Source: Haliclona indistincta
Taxonomy: Eukaryota > Porifera > Demospongiae > Haplosclerida > Chalinidae
Assembly (NCBI GenBank): GCA_964017065.1
Contig: OZ024792.1
Coordinates: forward strand, 2,227,754 to 2,291,753
Direction of reading: 5' to 3'
DNA: 64,000 nucleotides
The position numbers and the translations under genes were made by a program. How positions within the stretch are numbered: the first letter of the stretch is position 1; each line of letters begins with the position of its first letter. Below, one piece after another: positions 23,715 to 61,807 of this stretch. Under the pieces are notes generated by a model. The model saw only the letters and a list, made by a program, of their open reading frames with translations, had not been told where the DNA came from and made no database searches.

Positions 23715-24907
23715 CTATATGATGGGGTGCTGAACGCATGAGTGTGGGATACTGTAGGATTTTAATAAGGGGTCCTAGAATATTAATAGGATAAAAATTG
23801 TTACTCAAATGGACTGTTATAAAGACAGAATACTATCACGACATATGTAGTTGTCAGCCACCATGTGAAACAGTGTTCCTAGCTGGCAGAGCGTTTGTGT
23901 CACAGTAGATATAGTCAGTGACATATACCAGAGGTCATACAAAAGCAAGAATACAGCAAATACACCGTTACCGTGAAAGAAAATAAGAACAGCTGAAGTC
24001 ATTAGAAGACTACTAAATAGTTTATTTATTAGTTTGAATTGACTTTAGTCCAAATAAAAGCGATTATACATGTAACAACTCTTGGTAACAACTAGTCAGT
24101 CTAAGTATAACTAGTAGTAAGCAGCAAACCCTAGCGGCGGTAGACAGAAAAATATGGCTATGTCATAGCAAGAATACAGAGTTGCATGCTCCCTCGCCCA
24201 CTTTGTGAGCATGATAATGATTCAAACAGCTGTTTAATGGTTGGTATAAAGAAATAAGGACTATAGAAAACATCATGTAGATAATTCAGACATCTAGTAG
24301 TCAGATTGCGAATTTTCTTTGTGGCAACATAGCTTGTGCTCTGTTCGTTGCTTCATCACATTACAATAATTGAAGAGTGCTCGTCCTGATGTTTAACAAT
24401 GACCTCTATCCAAATCCATGATTGAACTGCCTTGTTGTATCATGCAGACACTCCAACTGTTGATAATAAAATTAATATTTTCTTGTCAGAGTGTCTTTAT
24501 TAACTAGCCACACTGGATCTAGTGTTACCTCAGCCAACTTAGATGAATATGAGCAAAAAAATGAAAAATTCTGGATCCCTTTGTTTGGTATTGGCACTGC
24601 ATGCATGCCAATACATGTGTTTCTCGCCGGATTATCCATAGTGTAGCTGCTCTGCTAGCCTAAGATGGTTTCGCATATAATTAATTGCTGCCGAGAAGCC
24701 CAGCCCCACACATGACATCAGATTGCAAGTGAGTAAATGGACAAACACTGAGGTGTGAGCAGGACCAGACAAGACATGAATTATGTAGGTGCATTTGTGA
24801 ATGACAACAAACAGTTTGTGGTAAAAAATGAATAATAATTATTGATCATGCTATTATTGTAAACAATACTAACTCAGTTAAACAGTTGCATTATAGTCAT
24901 TGTAGTG
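23715..24907. other. 3' flank of HSD17B12, left edge of the duplicated cluster
   Basis: Contains the HSD17B12 3' UTR (its TCCTAGAATATTAATAG region is conserved in the later repeat blocks), a decayed death-fold exon (separate entry, 24325-24560), and at 24780-24907 sequence matching the 3' flank of the other membrane-gene copies. Otherwise nothing seen. Confidence 0.6.
24325..24560 (-). pseudogene. Relic of the CARD-like exon
   Basis: Aligns by eye to 26840-27110: shared words include CATAGCTTGTGCT, CTGTTCGTTGCTTCATCACA, TAACAATGACCTCTATCC, CTAGCCACACTGGATCTAG and CTCAGCCAACTTAGATGAAT in the same order, with deletions and frame changes in between. No start, no splice context and no membrane exons belong to it. 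It shows that a further copy once stood directly next to HSD17B12. Confidence 0.8.
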
Positions 24908-27285
24908 CTACTCCGCCGATTTTCTTCCATAGTTGTAACCATTTGTATAGAGAAGTGCTCCAACAATTGTGAGCTGGCAGGTGGCTTGAGTTACGAGAAA
25001 TACACTTGAGTCATTAGACCAATACTTGTACAGGACAGAAATTAAATGTATTAAAATAAGTAAGATTGTAACCATCACAGCATAAGCTGATCGATGATTT
25101 AAAGTAATGAGGATTACTGATGTTATTACAAGAATATCAACTACAACCAGTAGAAAAGAAAATTCATTTTGTTGGTATGTCACATCTAAGACATAAACAA
25201 TTACAGAAATAACATTGATAATCTTCCAAGCTACTTTCATTATAGTTGCAATTGGTGGTGGATCATCAGCTAAAAATAATAACATAAGTAAACCTCCTGC
25301 ACCAAGATTTGCTAAAGAATATAAGAACTTTCCCATAGTATATCCATTAAAATCCATTATAACTTTAAGTAGAAAATATCCACAGATAAGTTCAAAAATC
25401 CCATAAACAATGAAGAGTAGAAGCTCGTCAGTATAATATGCTGCAGATGTAACAGTACATTTACTGATTCCTAAACACACACCAACAATAGTTATCAGTA
25501 TAATCATTACAAAAACCAGTGTGTTTGGTTTATTTATGAAGAAAGAAGAAAGTAAATGTATAAAGCCAAAACCAAACAATGTAAAAAGTGAATACCAGAG
25601 ATATTTTAAAAAATTATCATTTTTGTAGTAAAAACCCAATTCCATGTAAAGTGGTATCTTACACAATTCCTTGGCAAACCATTTAGTCACTGTGAGTACA
25701 TGGTATCTTGGATATTTCCTATATAAATCTGGATACGGTGCATTGAGGTCAGAGAAGGTCGTTAAACACATTAATTCATAAAATACCTGTAAAGTAAATT
25801 TATGATAAACAATGTACATGCTGTGTACTTACCAAAATGTAAAATAGACCAATGGGATAAAATGATTTTACAGATTTTGTCGTTACAATTAAAATCATCG
25901 CAAACATTGGATATGGAAGTGACTCTGCCCAGAATGCCTTACTCCATGTGCTGTTTCCCAGTACAAGAACAACATCTGATATAATGGCCACTATGAAACA
26001 AAGGTTTGCTAACTGAAACCAAACCTACAGGTTAAAACAATTGAAATTATAAGGTGCTGACATACTGAGTACTTCCTCATAACGACTATAGTGTCATTAT
26101 GAAGAAGCAGATGATTATTTTTTGCAATGAGTATTGTGCTAGTGCAGAAAAACAGAACACTGATCATGGAGAGCCAAAGTACAGTTCATTTTTTGAAGCG
26201 ACAAAGGTGAAAAATCACTTTGCTAGAGCTACATTCCAGGAGATCATTTTATAATGACAACACATACACTCAACTGTCTTACCGTGCTCTTTCAGCAGTT
26301 AAATATCGACAAAGAGATACTTTTAATGAATTTGAATGATAGTAACTACATGTATAGTGCAGTACTGATCACCATGGTACCATTATCGTGGGGATCGAAA
26401 AGGCCCAAAATTTTTGATTTAGCAAATTTCATTTTGGCATCCAGTGCCAATTACACGTAATATAACAACAGTAACAAGAACTCTACACTTCACCAAACTC
26501 CAAAATTACTGGCAAATTGCGGCAATATAGTACTCCAGCAAATGGTGTCATGTTGTCGCAAATTTCACTGTGCTACATTCATTGCTCTTAACCTATAGTT
26601 AGGGTTTGACTTACATTGTGAAGAATTCTTTCACCTAAAACACAGAATATGATCACACATGGTTATACAAATATAAACTGACTTGAATTACAAACAGGTG
26701 ATGCATTGGGTGGTTGAATTTCTAATTCTATTGCCCGAGAATCATCAGAAGTATGTTCAGCTGCTTCATGTAACATCCATTTTTGTGGTAAATTTATATC
26801 CAGTAGCCTCAATTCTTCTTCATGTGGTTTTAATAGTGAGCTCATAGCTTGTGCTAGTGGTGCTAGCTCTGTTCGTTGCTTCATCACATTACAAACTGTG
26901 AGGAGTGCTTGATCTGGGTTCTCATGGAATTTAACAATGATCTCTATCCGTCTCCATAATTGAACTGCCTTGTTATATGCAGACACTCCACCAGTTGATG
27001 ATAAATCATCTCTTGTCTGAGCGTCTAGCAGTCCTTCACTGCACAGCTCACTAGCTAGCCACACTGGATCTAGTGTTGCCTCAGCCAACTTAGATGAATA
27101 TGAACGAATGATAGCTACTGGATCTTCTCCTTCCAACAACTCTGTGTAACATGAATCACAAAAGAACCTATAAAATATGAAAGCTTACCAGTACCACCAG
27201 CAATCGGATTATCATTACTTTTTTTTGGAGCATGCGGAGCCTGATGTGGAGCGACCTGGCCAGACATAGCCGAGGAAGTAGCCAT
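24908..27285 (-). CDS. CARD-like / multi-pass membrane protein, copy 1 (intact, 548 residues)
   Basis: Five exons join in phase: 27285-27189, 27141-26683, 26634-26615 (20-base micro-exon), 26024-25833, 25786-24908. After about 45 polar residues (MATSSAMSGQVAPHQAP start) comes a helical domain of about 95 residues with LDPVWLASELCSEGLLD, STGGVSAYNKAVQLWRRIE and LTVCNVMKQRTELAPLAQAM. That spacing of leucines and the KA..L...I core fits a death-fold (CARD-like) bundle. A polar linker follows, then two helices in exon 4 (VWFQLANLCFIVAIISDVVL) and about eight in exon 5, ending YNYGRKSAE in a short polar tail. Function unknown: a membrane protein with a cytosolic death-fold module would suit recruitment of signalling partners, but this is inference. 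Its membrane part is of a subtype shared with copy 7. Confidence 0.8.
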
Positions 27286-27714: not shown

Positions 27715-28823
27715 TTAATTAATGTTATAATTGTAGTCGACTATTTTTCTTCCATAGTTGTAGCCAACTGTGTAGAAAAATGCTCCAATAACTGTGAGCT
27801 GACAGGTGACTTGAGTAATATGAAATACAATTGAGTCACTAGACCAAGACTTGTAGAGAACAAAACTATTATATGATACAAAGAGTATGATAGTAAGTGC
27901 TATAGCATAAGCTGACCTGTCCTCTAATGCAACAAAAAATAACAAACCAATAATAAGAAAACTGAGTGCTATAAGTACAAATGATAAGTCGCTTGTATAA
28001 TACAATATGTTTATGAGATAAATAACAACTGAAATAATGCTAAAACTTTTCCAAGAAATTTTCAAGGCTTCAGTTGTCTCAACCAGCAAAGCTGTGTTAT
28101 TTAATTTTTCAATAGCTGCAACTACTGTCACACCTACTAAAATCAGAAAGAATAAATAAGAAAAGAATTTTGATAAAAGAATATCAAATGTCTGCGTAAT
28201 TCTGAATATCATGTAAGTGCTGATAATTTCAGTGAAAACAAAAGCAACTGAAAGGATTTTCGTAAATGTGGGTGACTCTGATATTAAAAAAATACATGTA
28301 ACAGTAACAGTTAGCATGATAATGATAATAACAAGCATGTTTGGTTTATTTATCAAAAAATACAGAACCAAATAACAAGGACAAACAATAAATAATAAAA
28401 AATGAGTAAATACCAGATACATGACTAGTTTAGTACATTTATGATAATAAACAACCAATTCCATATAAAGTGGAATTTTACAAACACTCTTAGCAAACCA
28501 TATCATCATTGTGAGTGAATCATACTTTGAGCCTAGTGTGTCCATTAAGATTATAAAGCACACCACTTCATAGAATATCTGCAATAAAGTAATAGTAACA
28601 TAAATACATAAATATAAACTATTTTTCTTACCAAAAAGAACCATAATCCAATGGGGAAAAAAGTTTTGACAGATTTCGTCATTCCAACTAATACAAGTGC
28701 TAATATTGAGTATGGAAAAAAATATACCAAGGAGTCTTTATTCAGTGTGCCGTTTTCCAGTGCAAGAACAACGTCAGACAAAATGGCCACTATAAAGCAA
28801 ATGTTTGCCAACTGAAAACAAAC
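27715..28823 (-). CDS. Membrane-only paralogue, copy 2 (CARD-like exons not found)
   Basis: Two exons, 28823-28632 (192 bases, same length and phase as exon 4 of the other copies) and 28578-27715 (288 codons with stop), both fully open. They encode the same about ten-helix domain: exon 4 VCFQLANICFIVAILSDVVL, exon 5 IFYEVVCFIILMDTLGS through RSAYAIALTIILFVSY to a tail YNYGRKIVDYNYNIN. No CARD-like exon, micro-exon or start exon could be found in the 300 bases upstream. Either the gene starts from an unseen exon further right, or it is a 5'-truncated copy whose reading frames are still open. The sequence is intermediate between the two membrane subtypes. Confidence 0.6.
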
Positions 28824-34305: not shown

Positions 34306-34839
34306 ATTGTGAGCAATTCTTTCACCTGAAACACAGAATAATATGATTATGATCACATTATGGTGTACTGGTTATCAACTGACTTGAATTGTAAACAGGT
34401 GGAGGAGTAGTGTGGTGTTCTAATTCTATTGGCAGAGAATCATCAGAAATATGTTCAGTTGCTTCATCTAATGTCAGTTTTTGTGGTGAATTCATATCCT
34501 GTAGCCTCAATTCTTCTTCATGTGGTTTTAATAGTGAGCTCATTGCTTGTGCTAGTGGTGCTAGCTCTGTTCGTTGCTTCATCACATTACAAACTGTGAG
34601 GAGTGCTTGATCTGGGTTCTCATGGAATTTAACAATGACCTCTATCCGACTCCATAATTCAACTGCCTTGTTGTATGCAGACACTCCACCAGTTGATGAT
34701 AAATCATTTCTTGTCTGAGTTTCTAGCAGCCCTTCACTGCACAGCTCACTAGCTAGCCACACTGGATCTAGTGTTGCCTCAGCCAACTTAGATGAATATG
34801 AACGAATGATAGCTACTGGATCTTCTCCTTCCAACAACT
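34306..34839 (-). pseudogene. CARD-like exon pair without start or membrane exons, copy 3
   Basis: Exon 2 equivalent 34839-34384 (152 codons, open and intact) and the 20-base micro-exon 34325-34306, with correct splice sites. The domain is nearly identical to copy 1 (ASELCSEGLLETQTRND...). Directly upstream of the exon 2 acceptor the sequence switches abruptly to the duplicated block at 34843, so the start exon is gone. Downstream of the micro-exon no membrane exon exists before the MITE at 34106. Best read as a truncated duplicate. Confidence 0.8.
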
Positions 34840-34842
34840 CTG

Positions 34843-35860: not shown

Positions 35861-36556
35861 AAAGTTATAGTCCGATGTTTTCTTCCATAGTTTAGTGTAG
35901 CCAGTTGCATGGAGAAGTGCTCCAACAATTGTGAGCTGGCTTGTAGCATGTGATATAAGAAATACACTTGAGTGTAACACGTACAAGACAAGAATATTAT
36001 ATGATACAAAGAGTATGATAATAAGTGCTATAGCATAAGCTGACTTGTAGTTGCATAAAATACAGTACAATAAACCAATAACAAGAATACTGAATGATAT
36101 AGGTATATATGATAAGTCACTTGCAAATATATGATTTAGGAGATACATCAGGGGTGATAATAATGGATAAACTGCTAAAACTTTTCCAAATTATATTAGT
36201 TAAGGCTGTATTTATACTGACCAGACTGAGTGCTGAAATTTCTAATACTACTACTAAAGCCATACCTGCCAGCCCACCTACTGAACTAATAACAAACAAA
36301 AAAGGAAACATTTTTGTTGAAATCGGCTGTTCATTTCTGTAAATCATGTAAAAGACGATAATTTCAGTACAAATAAAGGCAACTGAAAAAGGTATTACAA
36401 AAATGGGTGGATCAGGTGTACAAAATTTAACATGAATACCAAACATTATAGCACTAATAGTTAGTATGAAAATGAATACAACAATAGCAACTATCTTTGG
36501 TTGCCGGATCTATCATTAAATGCAAAAACAAATAACAAGGATAAAAGTTAAGTATT

Positions 36557-37200
36557 AGTTAAATGACCCTCACGAGGGATGTTGCTGGTATACAGGCCCG
36601 ACCGCCCGAGGGCGCGTAGCGCCCGAGGGCGGAGGGCCTATAGACGTTATTCATTAATTCCGCGCGCGATTGCGTCACTAGTGACGCAAACTACATAACC
36701 AATCGGCGTGCGCGCGCGTGTGAGTGGCGGACCGGCTGCGAGTAACGAGTGGCAAGAAGTAAACCATGGCAAGACCTGCTGCGCTATTTGGTGCACCAAT
36801 CGTTATTCTAAAGATTCAATTATAAAATTCTATCGTATTCTAACTAATCCTGAAAGAAGGAAGCGATGGATTGCTGCTATAAGGAGACTATTGACAGACT
36901 CTTGTCCGTTTCAAAGCCGTTAATACTCATCACATACGGGTCTTCGCTCAATCCCAGTTGGTCCAACTTTTGTCTGTACCTCTTTCCTCCAGTGTCATCT
37001 AGCGGTTTAACGAAAACCGACTCTGCAGCAACGTCGTTCGCCATGGAATTCGCCATTGCTTATTCGCCTTTTGCCACTCAGTTATTTCTACAGTTATTAG
37101 TCACGTGCAACATTAGATGAATAACATTAAAATTAACCGCGCACTCATTACGTACGGATAACGTCTATATACCGCAACATCCCGAGGGAGGGTCATTTAA
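36557..37200 (+). mobile_element. THAP-domain DNA transposon remnant
   Basis: Inverted ends TTAAATGACCCTC.CGAGGGATGTTGC (36557-36584) and its complement (37173-37200), one mismatch visible. Inside, the frame from about 36759 gives CCAIWCTNRYSKDSIIKFYR and ERRKRWIAAIRR, the pattern of a THAP zinc-finger N-terminus as in P-element-type transposases, but a stop follows before the C2CH second half, so it is a fragment. It interrupts exon 5 of copy 4/5. Confidence 0.7.
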
Positions 37201-37204
37201 GTGA

Positions 37205-38006
37205 TTTATATCCCGTTGCTATGTGGTTGCTTAGCTGCGCTCGTTGCCTAGTATCTTTATGACGTCAATGCATGGTGTAGCATAGCAACGAATGACGTCA
37301 TACTGTATTAGTACAGCAGCAAGGGTCAACTACAGCCATGCGCGCTCTGTGATCTGCTTTGTTTTAGACTCGAAAATGGATACGAGGAGCAAGAGAAGAC
37401 GTGATTTTGACTTAAAGGTTGATGGCTGGTCAGATGATAAAGGAAATGAGCCAGTTGAGAAGAGAAAAAGGTTAAGTCTCAGCAAGAAGAAGCCTGCGGA
37501 GCGGTAGTCTTTCGCTGGGCGGGTTACGTCAATATGAGAAGGTGACAACAACTCAACAGCAAGCTGTTTGTCGTGTGCTATCTGTGAATACAAATTCTAC
37601 TTATGACAACGAAGTTTCAAGCATGAGCTTACCTTCAACTTCTTCAGCATGCAGTATCAAGCTCACATTCAACTTCAGCTTCACAAGTTGTACCAAAGCA
37701 CACCTACAACAGCTGCAGCTCTACCGCAAATGAATTTTAGCTCTTGCTCGGTTCACATTTATCAAGGCACTACCCCTTCGTGCAAGAATTGAGCTGATTG
37801 CAGCCATTTGACTAACTCTTTATAATCATCATTATTTTATGCAATTTGATCACTTTTGCTGCAATGAAATATAGCATTATCCTCTTGAAATATAGCATTA
37901 AGCACTCTAAATATAGCACCTCCACTTGTGATATTGCATTGTGGTAAATGTAGCTTATTTAAAACACATCAATATCCTTAGCAACCACATAGCAACGGGA
38001 TATAAT
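37205..38006. mobile_element. Inverted-repeat element next to the THAP element
   Basis: Ends TTATATCCCGTTGCTATGTG (37207 on) and the exact complement ending at 38004; arms about 26 bases. TTAA occurs on both sides of the combined insertion in the disrupted exon (near 36547 and 38006), suggesting insertion at TTAA. A frame at 37376-37507 (MDTRSKRRRDFDLKVDGWSD) may be a transposon protein fragment. Short TATAGCA words repeat at 37868-37917. Confidence 0.65.
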
Positions 38007-38726
38007 TAACAGTAAATAAGTAAGTGCCAGATACATGAGTAGTTTGGTAGCTTTATGATAATTAACAACCAATTCCATATAAAATGGCACCTTACAGAAA
38101 CTCTTAGCCAACCATATTATCATTGAGAGTGATTCACACTGGGTTCCTTGCATCCATTATCATTACAAAGCACATAACTTCATAAAACACCTGTAATAAA
38201 GTGATAATTAACTAAAATACAAGGATGGTTATTTTCTCACCAAAAAGCATAATCCGATAAAGAATGAATATTTCACAGATCTCGTTATTATCACATAGAT
38301 ACTTGTGATTGCAACCAGTGCTAATATTGCACATAAATAAATCTTCGTATTCCATGTTCTGTTTTTTAGTACAAGAACGATGTCAGACATAATGGCCACT
38401 ATAAAGCACAGGTTTGCTAAGTGAAACCAAACCTACAAAATTAAATGATGCTAAGTTTATGCTTTGAAATATTATACATCCCACAGTATCATGTATGTAG
38501 TAAATATAATTACAGTATGTAGTATGTCTCAGACGGTGATACAATAATTGTTTGTATAGTGCTGGTGGTATGATAACTGTTTGTACAATATGGAGGTTTA
38601 TTGTGGACAAAAATAATTTTAAATAGAATCACACTACATCTCATCTATTTCATTGAGAAAATGCATTATACAATAATCGTTCATTGATTATTTTGTAGTC
38701 GTGCGTCATCAAAACTGGGACTCGTT

Positions 38727-38905
38727 CAAATAGATCGAGAAACTGCACTCGTTCAAAATGGATCGAGAAACTGCACTCGTTCAAAATGGATCGAGAAACT
38801 GCACTCGTTCAAAATGGATCGAGAAACTGCACTCGTTCAAAATGGATCGAGAAACTGCACTCGTTCAAAATGGATCGAGAAACTGCACTCGTTCAAAATG
38901 GATAG
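38727..38905. repeat. 28-bp minisatellite in left arm (about 6 units)
   Basis: Unit TCGTTCAAAATGGATCGAGA plus AACTGCAC, about six tandem copies, near identical. Confidence 0.95.
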
Positions 38906-39048
38906 TGTAAAGACTGTCGAGTAACTGCAAGTGAACACCATGCAGCGCTCGTTCGACAACCATGCAGCCACACCTTGATGTGGTAAAATTGGGCGTGATC
39001 ATCGAGTCCACTAATCATCAGTGGATGCGTGTGCAAAGAACTTAATTA

Positions 39049-39648
39049 TTATGCCTCGGTGGGCGGAGCCACGAGGCATACAGCTAAGTAGTTCGTTTGT
39101 GTATGTGTGTATCTGTCTGTCTGTCTGTCGGCAGGATTTCTCGTCGCTCGCTGAAAACTAAGCGCTGAAACGTGCAACACAAGCTAAAGTCGATATTTGC
39201 TTGAAAATGAATTGTAAGGATTTTGGTTATAAGGCTCTGTTCGTGAGTTATAGCGTGATTGCTTACCTCGCGATCGCCGGCTGGCGACTACTGGCGATCT
39301 AGTTGCTGATGTAAAGACAAAATTGTCCATTGCTGGCTGCCTTACAGCTAGTGAGTTCGCCTTTACTTCAGAACAGCACGGCAGACTTGTATATGAAGCT
39401 GCGTTCTAGAGTTATGGCGTAGCTTTGCTTACCTCGCGATCGATGGCCGTTGCTGGCGATCTAGAGTTTCTCCGTAGACAAAAAAATATCCACAGTTGAC
39501 TGCCTAGAAGCTGATAGGTTACATCGTATATCTAAAGAAATTAGAAATTGTGTAAGCAAGCTATGAACGCTATGTCGCTGAACAATATAGACACGCCCAG
39601 TTGAATTAGTGGTCAGCACTGATTGGCTTCTGATTGCATAACTATTAT
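39049..39648. mobile_element. 600-base insertion in the left arm of the transposon
   Basis: Absent from the right arm, where the flanks are contiguous. It starts ATGCCTCGGTGGGCGGAGCC, a palindromic end (ATGCCTCG...CGAGGCAT), followed by a TCTG run. ATTATT occurs on both sides. No coding capacity. Confidence 0.7.
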
Positions 39649-41935
39649 TTATTCATGAACACGTTCTTTTCGTTTTTCTTATTAAAACATCATAAAATTG
39701 TATATTTTCCCCTTGGTTTTTTCTCCCTCATTCTCTAATAAATAATATTATTTATAACTTTTGCACGTAATAATAATATTTTTAATATTCTTTTTTCTGT
39801 TCTTCTACTTTACTCTGCAACAATTTACCAATAGACGCTATTAACTGTTCTGACTTATCATTGTTTAAAAAACTAATATTATCTCTATTTTTCTGATTTT
39901 TTCTCTCTCTCTTTACTATGGTGCACATCAGCAATTTTGCTATTTTTGTGTATCCTTGACAAAATTCACCAGGTCCAGTGAATACCAATAGTGAGGAAAT
40001 CCAAACAGCAAAGAGCTTGGAGCAAGAACAGACAGACTCTATCCCAATATACAAAGTAAAAATGTTTTAATAATAAAAAAAACTTAAAAGTGTAGGGATA
40101 ACACTTGCAAAAGTAAAGCAACAAGGCTTGAAAAAGGAAAGGAACAAGATGGAGAGAGCACTAAATTAGAGCATTAAATCCAGTGAGAGTGCATACAGTT
40201 CATCGCGATTGAGCTAGAAACAGCTCTATTTCACTAGAATCAGTCTCTAGAATCACTTCTAGCATTAAATCCAGTGAGAGTGTATACAGTTCATCGCGAT
40301 TGAGCTAAAAACGTCTCTGTTTCACTAGAATCAGTCTCCAGAATCACTTCCAGCACTAAATCCAGTGAGAGTGCGCACAGTTCACTACTATTCACTACAT
40401 AATGTTTTGTATACATCACACCCCCAAAAAGGCCAAAATCCTATCTTGCATGAATAGAGATTGCCTGGATATACTCTTCTACATGAGGTACTACTACCTA
40501 CATCTGTTGGCTCTATGGTGAGCACACTCTTGGTTGCATACTGGTTACCTGGTGAAACTTTGCTGTCAGGAATCCAGGCATCTCCTGAAATTGGCTAACA
40601 TTAAAGCGTGTATCGGGCAGCAGGGAATTTACAATGGCTATCAGACGGAATTGTGAAGATAGACAATCGGCTAAAATGTCTTCTGCAAATTGTTCAACAT
40701 CCCAGCTATGATCCCAGCAACTATTCTACACAGGCATGTACATTGATGAAGAAAATAATTATAAAACAGAAACTCACTATCTCAAGTATAACAGATGTGA
40801 AATAAATTGTCAATTTTATAAAATACTGCTGAAATTGAATAACTGTATGACAAATGTCAAGCTAGAGAGAATAGGAACAGAGAATCTGAAACTGCAGACA
40901 GTCTATAACATGTGTTATTCGACTGTTTCGATCTATCGGATCTCATCAGTGCAGTCAATCAGACAGAGTACAAGAGATGAAGTGTGTGTGAGAGAGAGAG
41001 AGTTAGTGATTGTATGTGCAGGTTTATTCTTGCCTCCTCTTGAGTCAAAATAGTATGGTTCTTACTCTCTCATACCACAATTTCTTGTCAGCGCAAGCGT
41101 ATTACTTCTCTTGCAGCAATAATACTTCTAAATACTAGAGTTCTAATGAACACATACCCGTGCGCTGAGCTAGGAGCTAAACACGCATTACGGTACATGT
41201 GAGACTGGGTGAGGACATCGACAGGAGGTTGGGTGACACACCCACAATACCGTAAGTGCTCTTACAAGAACACGTAGCTTTAGATAGCCATGGATTAGCC
41301 ACTCGAACAAGGCTTGCCAGCGCAGAAAACGTCTTCACAGGACTATAAATTCAGTGAAGAAGCTGTAGAGAGTGTAGTCGTGGAGAATTTCGAGCGGTGA
41401 GACGTAAACAACCGTGTTTTTTGTCCACACACAAACACACACACACACATACCGACGGACACAAACGCATAACCCTGGCGCATACTGCGCACGGGTAAAA
41501 ACCGCCGTGTGTGTGTGAACATAACGAGAGTAGAAGAAGATAAGACAGTTGTGCTATTGAGAACACATTGTAACACAAGAACGAGAGAACAGAGAGATGA
41601 GAGGCAAAGACAAGAGACAGGAACAGTAAAACTCGCCTGTATCTTACTGACTTCTTGCCAGTTTTATTTAGCACGAAATGATCCTATTGGTGGGGATGAG
41701 GCTATCCTATTGGTCAGCCGATTCGCGCCAAAACTTCTCGCACGTGAGTAACAACGCGGGCAGCTCCAGTGTTGTTATTACGTACTTATACACACAAGAC
41801 ACAATATTACAACAAGACACAATATTACAACAAGACACAATATTACAACAAGACACAATAAATAAATAGATAAATAAAAGGTCAAGTAATAGAGGTAAGA
41901 ATAAGAGGTAAAAGGTAAGATGACAATTAAGTAGA

Positions 41936-42543
41936 ATGTATGAACAAAGCTGTATCACTGGGCGAAGTGTGCACAATCAAAGGATTGAACGTTTTTGGAG
42001 AGACTTGTACCCAGCATGCATAGCAGTGTACTACATGCTATTTTGGTCATTAGAAGACTCAGAATCATTGGACAGTGGCAACGCTATTGATCTGTTTTGT
42101 TTGCATTACGTTTTCCTACCTAGAATTAATCGCTAAGTTGACTTCTTTTTGTGGGTCATATAGTCACCATCCTATTCGAACAGCACACAATAGGAGTCCT
42201 TACCAACTTTGGATCAGTGGGATGTTATTAAACTCTGGAGACAATGCCGCTGTGCAGGGAGTTGAAGATTCTTCTGGTTTGGTCAGTTAAATTAAGTGCG
42301 TGTATGCAATCTGACATTTGATATAATATCATGCAGGAAGACTATGGAATTGATTGGAATGGACCACTTTCAGTTGATAATGATAATATTGTGACTGTAC
42401 CAGACACTGAGTGTGTACTCTTTCCTGAGCAGTTCTCAATCTTACAGGCCACAATCGATCCACTTCAATCTTGTGAAGATTTTGGAGTACAAATATACAT
42501 AGAAACTAGAGAATTTGTTTACACATGCATTAATGATGAATGA
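41936..42543 (+). pseudogene. Integrase-core transposase remnant
   Basis: Two exons. 41936-42288 reads GRSVHNQRIERFWRDLYPAC and DLFCLHYVFLPRINR, then a stop/frameshift near 42136, then NRSPYQLWISGML in the next frame. After an intron ending ATCATGCAG, 42335-42543 reads EDYGIDWNGPL and CEDFGVQIYIETREF to a stop. This matches the C-terminal part of eukaryotic transposon proteins with an rve-type (DDE) integrase core that I know from cnidarian and fish genomes. The catalytic first half is not present. Confidence 0.75.
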
Positions 42544-42960: not shown

Positions 42961-43507
42961 GGTGCAGTTCAAGAGTCTGTCTGTTCTTGCTCCAAGCTCT
43001 TTGCTGTTTGGATTTCCTCACTATTGGTATTCACTGGACCTGGTGAATTTTGTCAAGGATACACAAAAATAGCAAAATTGCTGATGTGCACCATAGTAAA
43101 GAGAGAGAAAAAATCAGAAAAATAAAGATAATATTAGTTTTTTTAAACAATGATAAGTCAGAACAGTTAATAGCGTATATTGGTAAATTGTTGCAGAGTA
43201 AAGTAGAAGAACAGAAAAAGAATATTAAAAATATTATTATTACGTGCAAAAGTTATAAATAATATTATTTATTAGAGAATGAGGGAGAAAAAACCAAGGG
43301 GAAAATATACAATTTTATGATGTTTTAAAAAGAAAAACGAAAAGAACGTGTTCATGAATAAATAATTAAGTTCTTTGCACACGCATCCACTGATGATTAG
43401 TGGACTCGATGATCACGCCCAATTTTACCACATCAAGGTGTGGCTGCATGGTTGTCGAACGAGCGCTGCATGGTGTTCACTTGCAGTTACTCGACAGTCT
43501 TTACACT

Positions 43508-43712
43508 ATCCATTTTGAACGAGTGCAGTTTCTCGATCCATTTTGAACGAGTGCAGTTTCTCGATCCATTTTGAACGAGTGCAGTTTCTCGATCCATTTT
43601 GAACGAGTGCAGTTTCTCGATCCATTTTGAACGAGTGCAGTTTCTCGATCCATTTTGAACGAGTGCAGTTTCTCGATCCATTTTGAACGAGTGCAGTTTC
43701 TCGATCTATTTT
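43508..43712. repeat. 28-bp minisatellite in right arm (about 7 units)
   Basis: Inverse of the left-arm minisatellite with about seven units, so the two arms differ by one unit. The repeated frames on either strand are by-products: 3 x 28 bases gives a 28-residue periodicity in every frame. Confidence 0.95.
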
Positions 43713-43760
43713 GAACGAGTCCCAGTTTTGATGACGCACGACTACAAAATAATCAATGAA

Positions 43761-44318
43761 CAGATTTCACGAAACCCTCGGCGTGTTGCACATTGTAGAG
43801 TTAGCACCTTAGTTATGGTTTGCAGAAGGAGCTTTGCAGCTGAAGCCAACCTGCTTGCTATTGAAACTGCACTGCTACATGTAACCAGAAGACAGCAAAG
43901 TGCTGACCACAATTCAATCGAGACAAGGTGTGTCAAGTGGGCGTGACCGTGAACACTGAGTAGGCAGCCATTGCTCTTCGCTTTGATAGGCTTTTTCTTG
44001 AGATGTCTACGCACCCCAAGAGCTGTCCTGCTGTTTAGATGGAATCTACAAGTACCTAGGTAGTCAACTATGGGCGCCTTTGTTGTCAGAGAAGTCTAAG
44101 ATGGCCGTCATGCAAGGTGAGCCAGCCATAACTCAAGAACGAAAGCACTTTAGCAAAATCCACGAGTCACATTGCAAGCCATGGTCGTGCTTAGCCTGTT
44201 CATACCTTAGTTGACGCGTAGAAGCGATCGCTGATCTCTGTAGCAGAAGAGACAGACAGACCGACCGAACGACAAAGCAAGTACCGTAACCCTCGCGCAT
44301 GCGCCGAGGGTTAATGAC
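43761..44318. mobile_element. MITE, copy a (ACCCTCGGCG ends), inside right arm
   Basis: Ends AAACCCTCGGCG and CGCCGAGGGTTA. The left arm of the host transposon lacks it, giving the empty site. Nearly identical to 44480-45013. Confidence 0.8.
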
Positions 44319-45013: not shown

Positions 45014-45801
45014 ATTATGTGTCAGTTTGAATCAATCTGCTCTTATTAATAATTTAATGACGACTCGAAATATTAGCATCCCAATGTTAACTTCAAATAG
45101 CGTAATGGTACCAGCAATACAGTAGTCTAGCAAATGACATCAATTATGTCAATAATGCTGTGCTGCGCACTTTTAGGTCTCAACTTACATTTTGAGCAGT
45201 TCTTTCACCTGAAACACAGAATATGTAAATTATGACACATGGTTATTAAAATCACGAACTGACTTGAAGTGTAAACAGGTGGTGTATTGAGTGATTGGAT
45301 TTCCAATTCTATTGACAGAGAATCAGAAGTACTTGTTTGTTCAACTGCTTCATGTGACATCCATTTTTGTGATTCATTTATACCCTGTTCCCTCAATCGT
45401 GGCATCATAGCTTGTGCTAGTGGTGCTAGCTCTGTTCGTTGCTTCATCACATTACAAACTGTGAGGAGTGCTTGATATTGGTTCTCATGGAATTTAACAA
45501 TGACCTCTATCCGTCTCCATAATTGAAGTGCCTTGTTGTATCCAGACACTCCACCAGTTGATAGCAAATCATCTCTTGCCTGAGTGTCTAGCAGTCCTTC
45601 ACTGCACAGCTCACTAGCTAGCCACACTGGATCTAGTGTAGTTGCCTCAGCCAACTTGGAACTGTATAAACGAATGACTTGATCTTTGCTCAGCCCTGCA
45701 TCGCGCGAGCAGAAAAAATTAGTCACATTGCCATAATTATTATGCTGCGATTATAACTACTCTAGCTTACCGTCAGGACTACTTTGTTGTTCCACGGCCA
45801 T

Positions 45802-46244: not shown

Positions 46245-46441
46245 CGGTTTAAACTATGATTTCGACTTACCTGGAGAGAAAATAGCACTCTTGTACCAGC
46301 AAGCTACCCGAAACGGCGTAGAAGATACAAATAGCGTGATAAACGGCGCTTAGTTTGCTGCCTAGTGCGCGGTGGCGCCATGTTTTTTACACCCGCCCAC
46401 GCACAGGTCAATACGAGCGATTGCTGTATTGACTTGAGCGA

Positions 46442-48095
46442 TTGCTGTCACTTTTTGTCGATATCGGATTTCCTCACCCCTCCCAAACAGCATATCAGAG
46501 AGGTCTGTCGTGTATCGATGCTATATTCTCAACCCAAGAAACAATCCTGAAACATATCCGTGATGGTGACACTCCTTATCTGTGTTTTTTTGATTTGGAG
46601 AAAGCTTTCGACTCTGTTGAGTTCTCTACACTACTTTCTCATATATTCAAGTTAGGTGTCAATGGTAGATGCTGGCGTCTGATTAAAGACTGGTACTCGA
46701 ACACCAGTAGTGTCGTGAAAGTTAATGGAATTTGTTCTGATTGCTTTCCAGTAGGTCGTGGTGTGAAGCAGGGATCTGTGCTCTCCCCGACTTTGTTTAT
46801 TGCAGTAATGGACTCACTTCTACATTTTCTCGAGAGTGCTGGCCAGGGTTTAAACCTGTTGGGCTTACATGTGGGTGCTTCTGCTCATGCAGATGATGTC
46901 AGGGCTGTTAGCCTAAGCAAGTCTGCTGCTCATACTCAAGGTAACCTAATTGAGGCATTTTGTCAAGCAAACTCCTTGAAGCTTAATGTTAGTAAAACTG
47001 AAGTTGTGCTAACCACTAAGGGGAGATATAATGAATGTATGCTTGAATTAGTTGGCCGGGAAGTTGTTACTCAAAAAGAAGCGAAATGCCTTGGTGTGTG
47101 GTGGAGGTATGACTTGTCTCCATTGAAGTCTGTTGAAGAGAGCATTAGCAAAGCTAGGCGTGCCTTCTTTGCTTTAGGCTCCATTGGAGCTTTCCATGGG
47201 AAGCTAAATCCTCTCACTGGACGTAGCTTATTTGAGACATTTGTTGTGCCTACCTTGTTGTATGGTTGTGAAACCTGGATACTCTCTGAATCCCATCTAC
47301 AAATTCTGGAGTCTTTTCAAGCTGAGATTGGAAAGCGGATTTTGGGGTTGTCTAAATTCCACTCTAACACCAGTACCTTGATTGGTCTTCACTGGCCCTC
47401 TGTTAAGGCACGCATCCTTATTCGAAAGCTCAAATTCCTGGCTAGAGTTCTAGTAAATGACGATAACATAAGTTCTCGAGTTTTTCGTACTCTGGCCTCG
47501 GATGATGTTTATGAAATCAGTCTGGTACAACAATGCCGTTTTCTGGAGAGCTTCTTTGGCACCAATTTCCTGCAACTCTGTCTTCACAATCCTCCTGATG
47601 CACTTTCAATTGTTCATGATGCGAAGCAAGATATTCTTGCGAGTGACTGGGAAGGAACACTAGCGGAGTCCAAGTCTCATCCCTCGCTCTCACTTGTGTC
47701 AGCTACAGCTAATATTGCCTCAAGTTGGAACAGCATATGGGATGAGGCACTTGAGCTGGGTGTTCGTGGAACTAAGCTAATGCAGGGGCTTTTTAATGCT
47801 CTTTCAAGACCGACCTTTGGTGAGAGACTATGTCCTCATTGTGGCGATAAAATTCCATCGAACTATTATGAACATCTGTTTTCAAGTCATCTACCTGAGT
47901 CAAAATACAGCACTGAGACCACAATACAATGGCTGGAGAACAAGAACTTTCATGATCTAATTAACCTTGCTGAGAAAATCTCATGTCTAAAGTTCACAGA
48001 CTGACTCTATATTTTTTTTATTTCATTTACTTAGTTCTTGTTTTTGTCATTATTATCCCGTAGAGGGCAACAGTAATAAACTTTGAACTTTGAAC
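46442..48095 (+). mobile_element. 5'-truncated non-LTR retrotransposon (LINE) with open reverse transcriptase frame
   Basis: 520 codons (46442-48004) encode reverse transcriptase blocks: SQTAYQRGLSCIDAIF, FFDLEKAFDSVEF, GVKQGSVLSPTLF, AHADDVRAV (the catalytic xADD box) and SKTEVVLTTKG, then a C-terminal domain with LYGCETWILS and a zinc-knuckle-like CPHCGDKIPSNYYEHLFSSH. No endonuclease domain is present, so the 5' part is lost. It ends with TAATAAA and a short (CTTTGAA)n tail near 48095. The frame is intact, suggesting fairly recent insertion. Clade not assigned. Confidence 0.9.
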
Positions 48096-51345: not shown

Positions 51346-51919
51346 TGAAGGAAGGAAGGAAGGAAGGAAGGAAGGAAGGAAGGAAGGAAGGAAGGAAGGA
51401 AGGAAGGAAGGAAGGAAGGAAGGAAGGAAGGAAGGAAGGAAGGAAGGAAGGAAGGAAGGAAGGAAGGAAGGAAGGAAGGAAGGAAGGAAGGAAGGAAGGA
51501 AGGAAGGAAGGAAGGAAGGAAGGAAGGAAGGAAGGAAGGAAGGAAGGAAGGAAGGAAGGAAGGAAGGAAGGAAGGAAGGAAGGAAGGAAGGAAGGAAGGA
51601 AGGAAGGAAGGAAGGAAGGAAGGAAGGAAGGAAGGAAGGAAGGAAGGAAGGAAGGAAGGAAGGAAGGAAGGAAGGAAGGAAGGAAGGAAGGAAGGAAGGA
51701 AGGAAGGAAGGAAGGAAGGAAGGAAGGAAGGAAGGAAGGAAGGAAGGAAGGAAGGAAGGAAGGAAGGAAGGAAGGAAGGAAGGAAGGAAGGAAGGAAGGA
51801 AGGAAGGAAGGAAGGAAGGAAGGAAGGAAGGAAGGAAGGAAGGAAGGAAGGAAGGAAGGAAGGAAGGAAGGAAGGAAGGAAGGAAGGAAGGAAGGAAGGA
51901 AGGAAGGAAGGAAGGAAGA
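51346..51919. repeat. (AAGG)n microsatellite, about 143 units
   Basis: About 574 bases of uninterrupted AAGG, then a short AAAG tail. Open frames on both strands through it (Glu-Gly-Arg-Lys and Phe-Leu-Pro-Ser repeats) are artefacts of the 4-base unit. The sequence from 51920 to 52165 holds nothing recognisable. Confidence 0.98.
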
Positions 51920-52462
51920 AAGAAAGAAAACGAAGATGACGAACGTCGATTTTCACCGTTTCCAGGTTCGCCACTTTAGTAACAATTTCGAGCAATCTCC
52001 TTGCTACTGTAAGATGGGGCAACGCCAGAGAGCAGATCTAAGTGTCTTTGGACGTATAAAATTAATTACCAGGCGAAATATTAGAGTTTGAACGCTAATA
52101 CATTGTATGTAGCCGCCATCTTGTTTTCTCGTTCAACCCTACATAGGGAGACACTACCGTGTCTCCCTAATAACCTAATGGAGGGAACTAGAATATTTTA
52201 TGTTCAATGATTTTCCCGGAACATTATTGCAATTTCATTGCTACAAGAAAGTAATCATAATTTCGCAACTTAATCGTCCCATGCATGAATTATAGCAAGT
52301 GCATTTGAATACATGTACATAATATTATTATGACCAACTGCTTGTGGTAAATTAATAATTATTATTGATCATGCATGTGTATCAAATCAAGTACACAATC
52401 TAAAGATGCTGTAGTAATGTCATTATGATAGTTAAACAGTTTCAGTAAAGTCACTGAAGTTC

Positions 52463-54814
52463 TTAATCCGCTGTATTCTTCCATAGTTTAGTGTAGCCAG
52501 TTGCATGGAGAAGTGCTCCAACAATTGTGAGCTGGCTTGTAGCTTGTGATATAAGAAATACACTTGAGTTACTAGACCATAACTTGTACAGGACAATAAT
52601 ATTATATGATACAAAGAGTATGATAATAAGTGCTATAGCATAAACTGACTTATAGTTGAGTACAATCAAATACAATAAACCAATAACAAGAATACTGAGT
52701 GCTATAGGTATATATGAGAAGTTGGTTAAAAAATGTATATTAATTTTTATGATATAAATAATAATGGAAAAAATGCTAAAACTTTTCCAAATATTAGTTA
52801 AGGCTTTATTTATATTGACCAGACTCAGACTGAGTGCTGTTTCTACTTCAAATAGTAAATACATCATCACACCTCCTATCCCACCTCCTATCCCTATTCC
52901 AAAAATATAATCCAATAAAGAAAAAGGACTCCGCCAAAGAACATCAACAAGCGATGCATTTCTGGCTAATAATATCCCACTACATAAAATGTACATGATG
53001 ATAATTTCAGTACAAATAAAGGCAAATGAAAAAGGTATTACAAAAGTGGGTGGACCTGGTGTATAAAATTTAACCAAACTTTCAACACTAACAGTTAGTA
53101 TGAAAATGTTACTAACAATAACAAACATGTTTGGTTCATCTATCAATAAATGCAAAAACAAATAACAAGGATAAAAATTAATTAATAGTAAATAAGTAAG
53201 TGCCAGATACATGAGTAGTTTGTGATAATTAACAACCAATTCCATATAAAATGGTACCTTACAGAAACTCTTAGCCAACCATTTTATCATTGTGAGTGAA
53301 TCACACTTTATTTTTGGGTTCAGTATGTCCAATAAGATTACAAAACACATCACTTCATAAAATACCTGCAACAAAGTGATAGTTAACAAAAATACAAGGA
53401 CGGTTATTTTCTCACCAAAAAGCAAAATCCGACGAAGAATAAGGGTTTCGCAGGACTCGTTATTATCACATAGATATTTGTGATTGTAAGCAGTGCTAAC
53501 ACTGCACATAAATAAATCATCGTATTCCATGTTCTGTTTTCTAGTACAAGAACGATGTCAGACAGAATGGCCACTATAAAGCACAGGTTTGCTAACTGAA
53601 ACCAAACCTACAAAATTAAATATGCTAAATTTATGCTTTAAATAATCACAGTACAAATAACGATTGTACCACCGTCTGTTACAACATAATATTTTGTGTC
53701 AGTTTAAAATCTGTTACTGTCATCAGTTTTTTTAATCAATCTGGTCTTATTATTACTTTAATGATGAAATACATTATGTTAGCTGCATCTCAATGTTAAT
53801 TTCAAATAGCACAATGGTAATGTAATTCGACCACTTTTTGCACTTACAGGATAAGAAAAATTTTCTATTCACACACGCATGTATTAACGTAATAGAATAA
53901 TTTGGCAAAATTTTGACTTCCGCCGAATTACCAGCAATACAGCAATACAATAGTCTAGCAAATGACATCAATTATGTCAAGAGTTCATTAAGTAAGAGTA
54001 AGCAGCCTTCAATATACCCCGTTGGACGGCGGTGAACATTTTCTACGTCAAAAGTTTGTACAGCAGAAAATATTAGGGCTGCTATGCTAATGATGTTCAC
54101 CGTTGTGTAACAACAGCAGTAATGATAATCATCGCTGTGTATAGGTAAACTTGTGACGTAGAAAAAGTCCAACGCCGCCCAACGGGGTTGCGCACTTTTA
54201 GGACTCAACTTACATTTTGAGCAGTTCTTTCTCCTGAAACACAATAATTATGTATTATTATGACACATGGTTATAAAAATCATGAACTGACTTGAATTGT
54301 ATGCAGGTGGTGTATTGAGTGATTGGGTTTCCATTTCTATCGACAGAGAATCAGAAGTACATGTTTGTTCAGCTACTTCATGTGACATCAATTTTTGTGA
54401 TACATTTATACCCTGTTCCCTCAATCGTGGCATCATAGCTTGTGCTAATGGTGCTAGCTCTGTTCGTTGCTTCATCACATTACAAACTGTGAGGAGTGCT
54501 TGATCTGGGTTCTCCTGGAATTTAACAATGACCTCTATCCGACTCCATAATTCAACTGCCTTGTCGTATGCAGACACTCCACCAGTTGATGATAAATCAT
54601 TTCTTGTCTGAGTGTCTAGCAGTCCTTCACTGCACAGCTCATTAGCTAGCCACACTGGATCTAGTGTAGCCTCAGCCAACTTAGAAGTGTATAAACGAAT
54701 GACTTGATCTTTACTCAGCTCTGCATCGTGCAAGCAGTCACATTGTCATATATTTGTAATTATAACTAGCTTACCGTCAGGAAACGGAACACTTCTTTGT
54801 TGTTCCTCAGCCAT
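52463..54814 (-). CDS. CARD-like / multi-pass membrane protein, copy 6 (intact, 527 residues)
   Basis: Five exons in phase: 54814-54775 (MAEEQQRSVPFPDE junction), 54720-54292, 54233-54214, 53607-53416, 53365-52463. The CARD-like domain is at about residues 14-110 (LDPVWLANELCSEGLLD, SAYDKAVELWSRIEVIVKF), followed by a polar linker. Exon 4 holds two helices and exon 5 about eight, with a glycine-rich insertion (FGIGIGGGIGGVMMYLLF) absent from copy 8, and the tail GYTKLWKNTAD. The long frame that starts at 53530 reads through the exon 4/5 intron in the wrong frame and should be ignored. The intron between micro-exon and exon 4 carries a MITE at 54014-54188. No stop or frameshift found. Confidence 0.8.
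54014..54188. mobile_element. MITE of about 175 bases in an intron of copy 6
   Basis: Ends ACCCCGTTGGACGGCGGTG and, inverted, CCAACGCCGCCCAACGGGGT, with further pairing of TTTTCTACGTCA and TGACGTAGAAAA. Absent from the same intron of copy 8. Confidence 0.8.
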
Positions 54815-54829
54815 TTTAACGAGCCACAC

Positions 54830-56134: not shown

Positions 56135-58293
56135 CTACAGGCTGTAGTCAACTGTTTTATGTCCATAGTTGTAGCCATAGAGAAGTGCTCCAGTCATTGT
56201 GAGCTGGCAGGTGGTTTGTGTTATAAGAAATACACTTGAGTCACTAGACCAAGACTTGTACAGGACAGAAAATAAGTGAAGTAAAAGAAGTAAGATTGTA
56301 ACTATCACAGCATAAGCTGATCGATGATTAAAAGTAATGAGGATTACTGATGTTAATACAAGAATATCTAGTACAACCAGTAGAAAAGAAAATTCATCTT
56401 GTTGGCTTGTTATGTCTATGAGATACAAAATTACAGAAACTACATTACAAATTTTCCAAGCTACTTTCATTACAACTGTGTCAGTTAGTTGTATCATCAG
56501 ATAAAAATAATTTCGTAAGTAAACCTCCTGCACACAGATTTGCTAAAGAAAATATGAACTTTGATACAAAATATCTATTATATTTTTCTGGTGTATCTTT
56601 AAGTATGACATAACTGCAAAAGAGTTCAAAAATTCCGTAAAGCACAAGGAGAAATAATATGTCAGATTTATTAACAGTGCATTCACCGATTCCTAAACAC
56701 ACACCAACAATAGCTAACAATATATAATTATTATAACAATTAGTGTGTTTGGTTTATTTATGAAGAAAGAAGAAAGTAAATGTATAAAGCCAAAACCAAA
56801 CTGTGTAAAGAGGGAAAAACAGAGATGTAAAATTAAGCGAGCATCTTTTTTGTAGTAGAAACCCAATTCCATGTTAAGTGGTATCTTACACAATTCCTTA
56901 GCAAACCATTTTGTCCCTGTGAGTACATCATATCTTGGATAGTTTACATTTTTGGGATAAGGTGCTTTGAGGTCAGTAAAGGTTGTTAAACACATTAATT
57001 CATAAAAAACCTGTATGGCAATAAAAACAATGATCATACATGTACTATTCTTACCAAAATGTAAAATAGACCAATGGGATAAACCGATTTGACATCAGAT
57101 TTTATTATTACAATTAAAATCATTGCAAACATTGGATATGGAAGTGACTCTGCCCAGAATGTCTTACTCCATGTGCTGTTTCCCAGTACAAGAACAATGT
57201 CAGACAAAATGGCTACAATGTAGCACAGATTTGCAAAATGAAACCAAACCTGCAGATTAAAAACAATTGTAACAGAATGATGTCATCATAGACATTGGGA
57301 AGAGATTCACTATGGTTCCAACACCATAGTAAATCTGATAACTTAGATAACTTTCATACATGAGGAGCATGAAAGATTCTTCCACCTGTTGTAAGTTAAG
57401 GGCTTACATTAGAGAGTAGATTGTCTGACTTGCTGTTTTCACCTGTGCATGATGATAAACATGGATAACTATGATGCACTTGCTGAACTATAATCACTTT
57501 ACTTTCTACTGAGGGAAGTAGCCAACTAGTCTCTTGTGCCGGATGATCTATTACTATTGCCTTAAAAATTATTATGTGAACATCTATTCATTGCACAGTA
57601 ATGTTTTATTAGCTCACAGTGCTAGCAGAGTGAACATTGAACCTATTTTCAGCTGTATCTAATAGACGATAAAAATGAGGCAAGAGTTCAATAACAACGT
57701 ACTATAACTTGTTTCGTCAACAGAAAAAGTAGGTGTCCAGTGCATTTTCACATTTGGCTGATCATAACCAGTTAGAAATTGTAGATCATAGGAACCATTA
57801 TAATCTGCAAAATTGTTATTTCATGCAATAATAGTTTTACATCATTATTAATGAACTTACCATGTGGTCTCAATTGTGAGCTCATAGCTTGTGCTAGTGG
57901 TGCTAGCTCTGTTCGTTGCTTCATCACATTACAAACTGTGAGGAGTGCTTGATCTGGGTTCTCATGGAATTTAACAATGACCTCTATCCGACTCCATAGT
58001 TGAAGTGCCTTCTCGTGTGCAGGCACTCCATTTGTTGACAGTAAATCATCTTTAGCTCGAGTATCTAGCAGTCCTTCGCTGCACAATTCACTAGCTAACC
58101 AGGGCACTAGGCGTTCTGTTGCATCAGCTAACTTAGTTGAGTATATACGAAGGATATTGATAGTCAGCTGCTCTGAATGATCTGTCAGTAACAAAAATAA
58201 AATAGAAATTTGTCTACTACAGTAACAGTCAGCTAGCACTCTTGAATGTCTATTACCATTTTCAGTAGAAGAGTATTCCTTTGGATCGGTCAT
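56135..58293 (-). pseudogene. CARD-like / membrane gene, copy 7 (divergent linker, frameshifted)
   Basis: Start exon 58293-58257 (MTDPKEYSSTENG), CARD-like exon 58181-57861 (321 bases, shorter; ERLVPWLASELCSEGLLDTR, GVPAHEKALQLWSRIE), ending early at a GTAAGT donor after a QLRPHG stretch. A following open segment (DYNGSYDLQFLTGYD) and a longer micro-exon-like piece at 57427-57393 suggest a different linker. Exon 4 is 57249-57055 (195 bases, one extra codon) and exon 5 starts at 57010. Exon 5 is broken by frameshifts near 56715 and 56495 compared with copy 1, its closest membrane relative, ending YNYGHKTVDYSL. Probably a pseudogene; sequencing errors in the two AT-rich spots would be the alternative. 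Confidence 0.7.
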
Positions 58294-59660: not shown

Positions 59661-61807
59661 CTAGACCGATGTTTTCTTCCATAGTTTAGTGTAGCCAGTT
59701 GCATGGAGAAGTGCTCCAACAATTGTGAGCTGGCTTGTAGCTTGTGATATAAGAAATACACTTGAGTCACTAGACCATACATGTAACTTGTACAAGACAA
59801 GAATATTGTATGATACAAAGAGTATGATAATAAGTGCTATAGCATATTCTGACTTGTAGTTGCATAAAATACAGTACAATAAACCAATAACAAGAATACT
59901 GAATGATATAGGTATATATGATAAGTCACTTCCAAATATATGAATTAGGAGATACATAATAATGAATAAACTGCTAAAACTTTTCCAAATATTAGTTAAG
60001 GCTGTATTTATACTGACCAGACTGAGTGCTGAAATTTCTAATACTACTACTAAAGCCATACCTGCCAGCCCACATACTGAACTAATAACAAACAAAAAAG
60101 GAAACATTTTTGTTGAAATCGGCTGTTCATTTCTGTAAATCATGTAAAAGACGATAATTTCAGTACAAATAAAGGCAACTGAAAAAGGTATTACAAAAAT
60201 GGGTGGATCAGGTGTACAAAATTTAACATGAATACCAAACATTATAGCACTAATAGTTAGTATGAAAATGAATACAACAATAGCAACTATCTTTGGTTGA
60301 TCTATCATTAAATGCAAAAACAAATAACAAGGATAAAAGTTAATTGACAGTAAATAAGTAAGTGGCAGATACATGAGTAGTTTGGTAGCTTTATGATAAT
60401 TAACAACCAATTCCATATAAAATGGCACCTTACAGAAACTCTTAGCCAACCATATTATCATTGAGAGTGATTCATACTGGTTCAGTATGTCCATTAACAT
60501 TACAAAGCACATCACTTCATAAAATACCTGTAATAAAGTGATAATTAACTAAAATACAAGGATGGTTATTTTCTCACCAAAAAGCATAATCCGATAAAGA
60601 ATGAATATTTCACAGATCTCGTTATTATCATATAGATATTTGTGATTGCAATCAGTGCTAATACTGCATATAAATAAATCTTCGTATTCCATGTTCTGTT
60701 TTTTAGTACAAGAACGATGTCAGACAGAATGGCCACTACAAAGCACAGGTTTGCTAAGTGAAACCAAACCTACAAAATTAAAATTAATATGCTAAATTTA
60801 TGCTTTGAAATATTATACATCCCACAGTATCATGTATGTAGTAAAATAATAATTACAGTATGTAGTATGTCTCAGACGGTGATACAATAATTGTTTGTAT
60901 AGTGCCGGTGGTATGATAACTATTTGTACTACAGTACCAGGAGCGCATTCCTTTTATGTGCTCCTGACAGTACAAATAATTATTGTACCAACATCTGTTA
61001 CAGCACATAATTATGTGTCAGTTTGAATCAATCTGCTCTTATTAATAATTTAATGACAACTCGATATACATTATGTTAGCATCCCAATGTTAACTTAAAA
61101 TAGCGTAATGGTACCAGCAATACACTAGTCTAGCAAATGACATCATTTATGTCAATTATGCTGCGCTACGCACTTTTAGGTCTCAACTTACATTTTGAGC
61201 AGGTCTTTCACCTGAAACACAGAATATGTAAATTATGACACATGGTTATAAATATCATGAACTGACTTGAATCAGAAGCAGGTGGTGGATTGAGTGGTTG
61301 GGTTTCCAATTCCATTGACTGAGAATCAGAAGTACTTGTTTGTTCAGCTGCTTCATGTGACATCCATTTTTGTGATTCATTTATACCCTGTACCCTCAAT
61401 CGTGGCATCATAGCTTGTGCTAATGGTGCTAGCTCTGTTCGTTGCTTCATCACATTACAAACTGTGAGGAGTGCTTGATCTGGGTTCTCATGGAATTTAA
61501 CAATGACCTCTATCCGTCTCCATAATTGAAGTGCCTTGTTGAATGCAGACACTCCAACAGTTGTTAATAAATCATCTCTTGTCAGAGTGTCTAGCAGTCC
61601 TTCACCGCACAGCTCATTAGCTAGCCACACTGGATCTAGTGTTGCCTCAGCCAACTTGGAAGAGTATAAACGAATGACTTGATCTTTGCTCAGCTCTGCA
61701 TCGTGCAAGCAGAAAAAATTAGTCACATTGTCATATAATTATTATGCTATAATTATAACTAGCTTACCGTCAGGAAACGAAATAACTCTTTGTTGTTCCA
61801 CGGCCAT
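59661..61807 (-). CDS. CARD-like / multi-pass membrane protein, copy 8 (intact, 515 residues)
   Basis: The cleanest copy. Exons 61807-61768, 61695-61267, 61211-61192, 60769-60578, 60527-59661 join in phases 1, 1, 0, 0. Residues 14-110 form the CARD-like domain (QVIRLYSSKLAEATLDPVWL, ELCGEGLLDTLTRDDLLTT, FNKALQLWRRIEVIVKFHEN, LTVCNVMKQRTELAPLAQAM). Residues about 111-163 are a Ser/Glu/Pro-rich linker that includes the micro-exon. Residues 164-227 carry two helices (VWFHLANLCFVVAILSDIVL) and 228-515 about eight more, with a CKVPFYMELVVNYHK segment conserved in all copies. No signal peptide, so the N-terminal domain is probably cytosolic. This copy gives the empty sites for insertions in copy 4/5. 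Confidence 0.82.

Follow-up and report, generated by a model that had tools for sequence, protein, structure and literature searches.

The window, that is, the whole 64,000-nucleotide stretch of the Haliclona indistincta assembly analysed here (C10:2227754-2291753), carries an array that spans 24.3-61.8 kb of its minus strand and comprises seven CARD-like exons as well as six membrane modules. This arrangement, already reported in a preliminary description, was recovered by stop-to-stop frames, repeats and translated searches. Three copies (c8, c6 and c2), previously regarded as intact, indeed splice into open predicted proteins (548, 527 and 515 aa among the three). Their exons measure 40 or 97, 429 or 459, 20, 192 and 867-903 nt, with phases of 1, 1, 0 and 0 and GT-AG boundaries in 12 of 12 introns, in agreement with the conservation of exon lengths and phases claimed earlier. 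The third exon has only 20 nt and is preserved in several copies. The features of each copy are the following:

61768..61807, minus strand: c8 exon 1 (40 nt); splice model
61267..61695, minus strand: c8 exon 2, CARD and linker (429 nt); splice model, predicted structure
61192..61211, minus strand: c8 exon 3 (20 nt); splice model
60578..60769, minus strand: c8 exon 4, first membrane segments (192 nt); splice model, hydropathy
59661..60527, minus strand: c8 exon 5, remaining membrane domain (867 nt); splice model, hydropathy
57861..58293, minus strand: c7 (type B) exons 1 and 2 with CARD; ends read by eye
56150..57252, minus strand: c7 membrane module, broken
54775..54814, minus strand: c6 exon 1; splice model
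54292..54720, minus strand: c6 exon 2, CARD and linker; splice model
54214..54233, minus strand: c6 exon 3; splice model
53416..53607, minus strand: c6 exon 4; splice model
52463..53365, minus strand: c6 exon 5, membrane domain (903 nt); splice model
45771..45801, minus strand: c4/5 exon 1 (31 nt)
45264..45695, minus strand: c4/5 exon 2, CARD; ends read by eye
45189..45208, minus strand: c4/5 exon 3
35873..38432, minus strand: c4/5 membrane module, broken
34384..34839, minus strand: c3 exon 2, CARD, open; ends read by eye
34306..34325, minus strand: c3 exon 3
27715..28823, minus strand: c3 exons 4 and 5, membrane domain, open once spliced
27189..27285, minus strand: c2 exon 1 (97 nt); splice model
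26683..27141, minus strand: c2 exon 2, CARD and linker (459 nt); splice model
26615..26634, minus strand: c2 exon 3; splice model
25833..26024, minus strand: c2 exon 4; splice model
24908..25786, minus strand: c2 exon 5, membrane domain (879 nt); splice model, structure model unusable
24339..24552, minus strand: c1 CARD exon fragment, decayed; translated search

Two of the six membrane modules are broken (about 38.4-35.9 kb and 57.2-56.1 kb), and the CARD-like exon at 24.34-24.55 kb is a decayed fragment. The membrane module of c3 (28.8-27.7 kb) is open; its CARD exon sits 5.5 kb upstream, and no exon 1 was found for it.

Other elements lie among and around these copies. Between exons 3 and 4 of c4/5, long inverted repeats (323 nt, 100%; outermost arms of 52 nt, 100%) delimit a stretch of about 5 kb (38679-43761) whose arms contain 28-nt minisatellites in mirrored orientation; it resembles an insertion of the foldback type. 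Just upstream of c8 there is a palindromic foldback, about 0.96 kb in length (62087-63045; arms of 111 nt and 225 nt at 96%). A reverse transcriptase frame (RVT_1, 4e-23) lies within the array on the opposite, plus strand at 46433-48004, and a GAAG microsatellite of 145 copies (51347-51926) opens several long false frames. Ordinary genes adjoin the array on the minus strand at 4117-7440 and 9099-10187, namely a frame that is presumably transhydrogenase-like and pieces of an isoleucyl-tRNA ligase.

Relatives outside the window

Whole-genome searches covered 144 Mb in 46 contigs. The array extends beyond the window to about C10:2,306,400, and two further open genes, L034 and L033, are located there. 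Spliced L034 encodes 501 aa and has the 40, 20 and 192-nt exons of the array; its CARD exon measures 396 nt and its last exon 858 nt. L033, of type B, has different first and linker exons; among five exon combinations tried, one was open over 518 aa, another gave 484 aa and three met early stops. The family has, therefore, at least five open genes (c8, c6, c2, L034 and L033), and c3 may be a sixth, though without an identified first exon. The earlier view that these are real genes is supported by the splice models and by the additional open copies outside the window.

A single distant paralogue with both a CARD and a membrane part, L036 on contig C9, was found genome-wide. Its CARD shares 44-47% identity with those of the array over 91-107 residues, and its membrane part 23-33%. 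Because L036 has both parts in the same order as the array, the CARD-membrane combination is older than the array itself. A partly broken, CARD-only copy lies at C8:10.936 Mb, where the membrane-domain searches of the genome matched nothing. Upstream of the distant paralogue (L036:4274-6600) there is a second CARD-like frame (6148-6600, by eye) as well as a domain repeated in the genome. Domains like the one at L036:5243-6034 occur in at least 124 genome places; Pfam gave this domain family no name, and we take it to be TRADD-N-like. These upstream frames and the CARD-membrane exons of L036 may form one long gene.

When a protein collection was searched with alignments, non-window sequences accounted for 6 of 10 membrane-domain matches and 32 of 35 CARD matches, while the full-length protein as query returned one match, a window protein. 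Outside matches of both kinds occur on contigs of equal reported size (1349026, 31428 and 696208), a hint, short of proof, that the two kinds are neighbours there. One of the outside sequences, P0026, is identical to the L036 CARD frame, meaning that some of these assemblies come from the same or a very close species.

The CARD and the membrane domain

The predicted structure of the N-terminal domain, computed from 27 of the 35 listed relatives plus six window rows (eight were omitted, three of them window copies), is a six-helix bundle with a kinked first helix, as in solved CARDs. The Pfam CARD profile (PF00619) matched none of the six window CARD frames; among 33 aligned relatives it matched six (E up to 1, the best 1.2e-5). 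By predicted structure and by the scores of these relatives the domain is a CARD, which agrees with the N-terminal, CARD-like death fold proposed beforehand. A Foldseek search with the model gave a best E of 0.2, with a designed protein among the best structural matches, and by sequence the CARD matched nothing in the PDB, either as a single sequence or as an alignment profile.

The same kind of CARD is found in receptor genes. In two places, L037 and L069, a CARD-like exon precedes a NACHT-LRR frame, and 19 of the 45 CARD places outside the known copies (56 minus 11 family copies) have a listed NACHT no more than 3 kb downstream. The genome NACHT search gave 102 scored matches among 631 candidates, and the distance count used the 23 of these 102 places that lie on shared stretches. 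Both this NACHT expansion and the large TRADD-N-like family fit a sponge genome. This CARD subfamily is thus common to the array proteins and to NACHT-LRR receptors of the same genome. The spliced array proteins proceed from CARD to linker to membrane domain with no NACHT in between, and Pfam NACHT had no match in the window exons scanned.

As for the C-terminal part, the number of strong hydropathy segments was 10, 11 and 10 for the three proteins, and weaker ones would raise it to 11-12. The many-segment membrane domain of the preliminary description is thereby upheld, but not its exact count of ten helices. In c8 numbering, W253, K256, C259, K260, E266, L267, Y271, W408, K409 and L463 are invariant in 12 of 12 rows, including L036, and an acid occupies position 180 in eight of eight membrane rows. 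Of the two halves whose folds had been put forward for checking, only the N-terminal one yielded its expected six-helix death fold: the membrane model (pLDDT 44.1, pTM 0.27) was unusable and its Foldseek matches were disregarded because of this pLDDT. Against the PDB, the alignment profile of the membrane domain found no sequence match, and the membrane exon as a single sequence found two chance-level rows only. In Pfam scans the domain reached no curated cut-off and gave little beyond VIT1 matches, so that, at the level of sequence, it could not be placed in any described family by the Pfam and PDB searches made here.

Two particular origins of this domain were considered. Descent from XK-related (XKR) scramblases is extremely doubtful. 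The resemblance, seen by eye only, consists of a comparable number of helices, an acidic residue in helix one and a helix interrupted by proline. However, XKR (PF09815) had no match in Pfam scans of the membrane rows, real XKRs scored no better than reversed ones in HMMER, and the profile-profile score was 13.8 against a block-shuffled mean of 13.5 (with a thin XKR profile of four sequences), whereas the genome's own XKRs, as a positive control, reached a probability of 99.8 against XKR4/XKR8. With all three tests lacking support at sequence level, this origin was dropped. Kinship with VIT-family iron transporters is hardly more than nominal in probability: Pfam VIT1 (PF01988) weakly matched 4 of 14 membrane rows (best P0004, 3.7e-5), but all scores seen fell below the curated cut-off (24.1 versus 28.1 bits for the best), spanned only the last 73-94 of 214 profile positions and were missing in c3, c6, c8, P0005, P0006 and P0010. 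These matches were taken as generic hydrophobic similarity and the kinship was set aside.

Sequence exchange and divergence among the copies

A stretch of 38-41 nt in the CARD core is the same, or nearly so, at the DNA level in six copies. The near-invariance of the core, described earlier, had hinted at constraint, an explanation that does not fit the contrast in dS between exons: when c2 is compared with c6, c8 and L034, dS is 0.06-0.16 in the CARD exon and 0.90-1.04 in the membrane exons. So low a value beside so high a one in the same genes points to recent sequence exchange, that is, to homogenisation instead of purifying selection. The membrane part of c2 is nearest to that of L033 (dS 0.32), yet the CARD dS of this pair is 0.38. 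Between c8 and c2, identity is 88% in exon 2, 58% in exon 5 and 90% over 48 sites of intron 2, and it falls towards either end of exon 2. This pattern is most simply explained by gene conversion with the CARD exon at its centre. Recent exchange appears to extend to the membrane part too, as pointed to by 300 identical nt shared by the broken c4/5 membrane exon (36193-36492) and c8 (59989-60288).

Pairwise comparison of c6, c8 and L034 shows a hypervariable stretch in the centre of the membrane part, where dN/dS is 1.54, 1.44 and 1.85 versus 0.95, 1.29 and 0.93 in its flanks (Fisher p = 0.10, 0.11 and 0.009; one of three non-independent pairs is significant). The dN/dS of c2-L033 is 0.45 over the whole membrane domain. 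These values hint at diversifying selection on the central membrane part in one branch.

Proposed role of the family

The earlier remark that no described protein type is known to join a CARD to a membrane domain of this length met no counterexample in the searches made here of Pfam, the PDB and openly licensed PMC papers; among the papers listed, none described a CARD joined to a many-helix membrane domain. The closest systems share parts of the plan. MAVS has an N-terminal CARD tied to the membrane by one C-terminal helix and is activated by CARD contact; the array proteins likewise pair an N-terminal CARD with membrane attachment, but have 10-12 segments. BAP31 and BFAR, compared by description only and without a hit in the paper search, combine death-fold-like domains with several membrane helices, and differ from the array proteins in domain type and order and in having fewer helices. 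NLRC genes in a sponge, and transmembrane segments in sponge NLR architectures, have been reported, and the available part of that paper describes no CARD with a many-helix domain (PMC12909245). As the array genes do, these CARD-NACHT-LRR receptors show tandem expansion, and the CARD of the array is homologous to CARD-like domains that precede NACHT-LRR frames in its own genome; unlike the receptors, the array genes lack NACHT and LRR and have a many-helix membrane domain after the CARD. Sponge death-fold/TRADD-N expansions also join an N-terminal death-fold unit to a fast-evolving C-terminus; the array genes contain no TRADD-N-like domain, and the variable C-termini listed for Amphimedon in the accessible text include no multi-helix membrane one (PMC8195603).

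The reading preferred here, held tentatively and at somewhat less than an even chance, is that these genes encode a lineage-specific family in which a linker connects an N-terminal CARD to a membrane domain of 10-12 segments, and in which the CARD would serve to recruit the membrane part as an output. The CARD would face the cytosol, where activated NLR-type receptors or CARD caspases could contact it via CARD-CARD pairing, gathering these proteins in a membrane. Such recruitment seems the likeliest link because NLRs of the same genome carry a CARD of this kind. The membrane part would then act by changing permeability, moving lipids or ions, or forming a local signalling platform, and would serve immunity or cell death, a role likewise only inferred in the preliminary description, with the shared CARD holding all copies to one pathway while the membrane part diversifies. 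A more specific version, which we consider unlikely, would have activated CARD-NACHT-LRR receptors nucleate CARD assemblies, which would gather the diversified many-helix proteins and switch on permeability or lipid movement directly, without a caspase or gasdermin step; conversion would keep the CARD exons alike while the membrane parts outrun microbial inhibitors.

The membrane part could instead be the sensor, a somewhat unlikely alternative in which a cue, microbial or physical, would be detected by the variable membrane domain and passed on to the CARD, which would recruit a shared downstream caspase or NLR. That the membrane part is the variable one would be expected of a recognition part, and the genome has 45 caspase-domain matches, one of which (C2:13132311, whose unspliced reading contains in-frame stops) follows a CARD match about 750 bp further downstream. 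On the other hand, an ectodomain is lacking: strong segments are at most 68 residues apart, and this longest gap itself includes a weaker hydrophobic stretch. The hypervariable stretch, moreover, affects membrane segments no less than loops. Since the loops are all too small for an ectodomain and the CARD has kin in NLR-type sensors, output is weakly preferred over sensor.

It is improbable that the cluster is relaxed or decaying, without current function and with recent duplicates as its open copies. The two broken modules, the fragmentary CARD exon and dN/dS near or above 1 in several pairs agree with decay, but no stop is seen where c6 and c8, diverging under a crude neutral simulation, should show 6.6 (or 3.6 with half the changes), a point tempered by 2 of 10 c6-c8 gap runs not being multiples of three, with both frames whole. 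Decay is also opposed by the invariant membrane motifs reaching as far as L036, by the low c2-L033 ratio and by the relatives outside the window. That CARD and membrane exons are separate neighbouring genes, as the introns of 0.4-5.5 kb between exons 2-3 and exon 4 might allow, is very improbable given the compatible phases, the conserved 20-nt middle exon in several copies and the CARD-membrane order kept by L036.

The window copies fold as CARDs by prediction and do not match the Pfam CARD profile, meaning that profile-based counts of immune domains in genomes like this one can miss such proteins. A direct route from receptor to membrane is used by plant NLRs. If the CARD links NLR-type receptors to the membrane protein of this family, early animals would also have such a receptor-to-membrane route, and the array supplies at least five open genes in which it can be tested.
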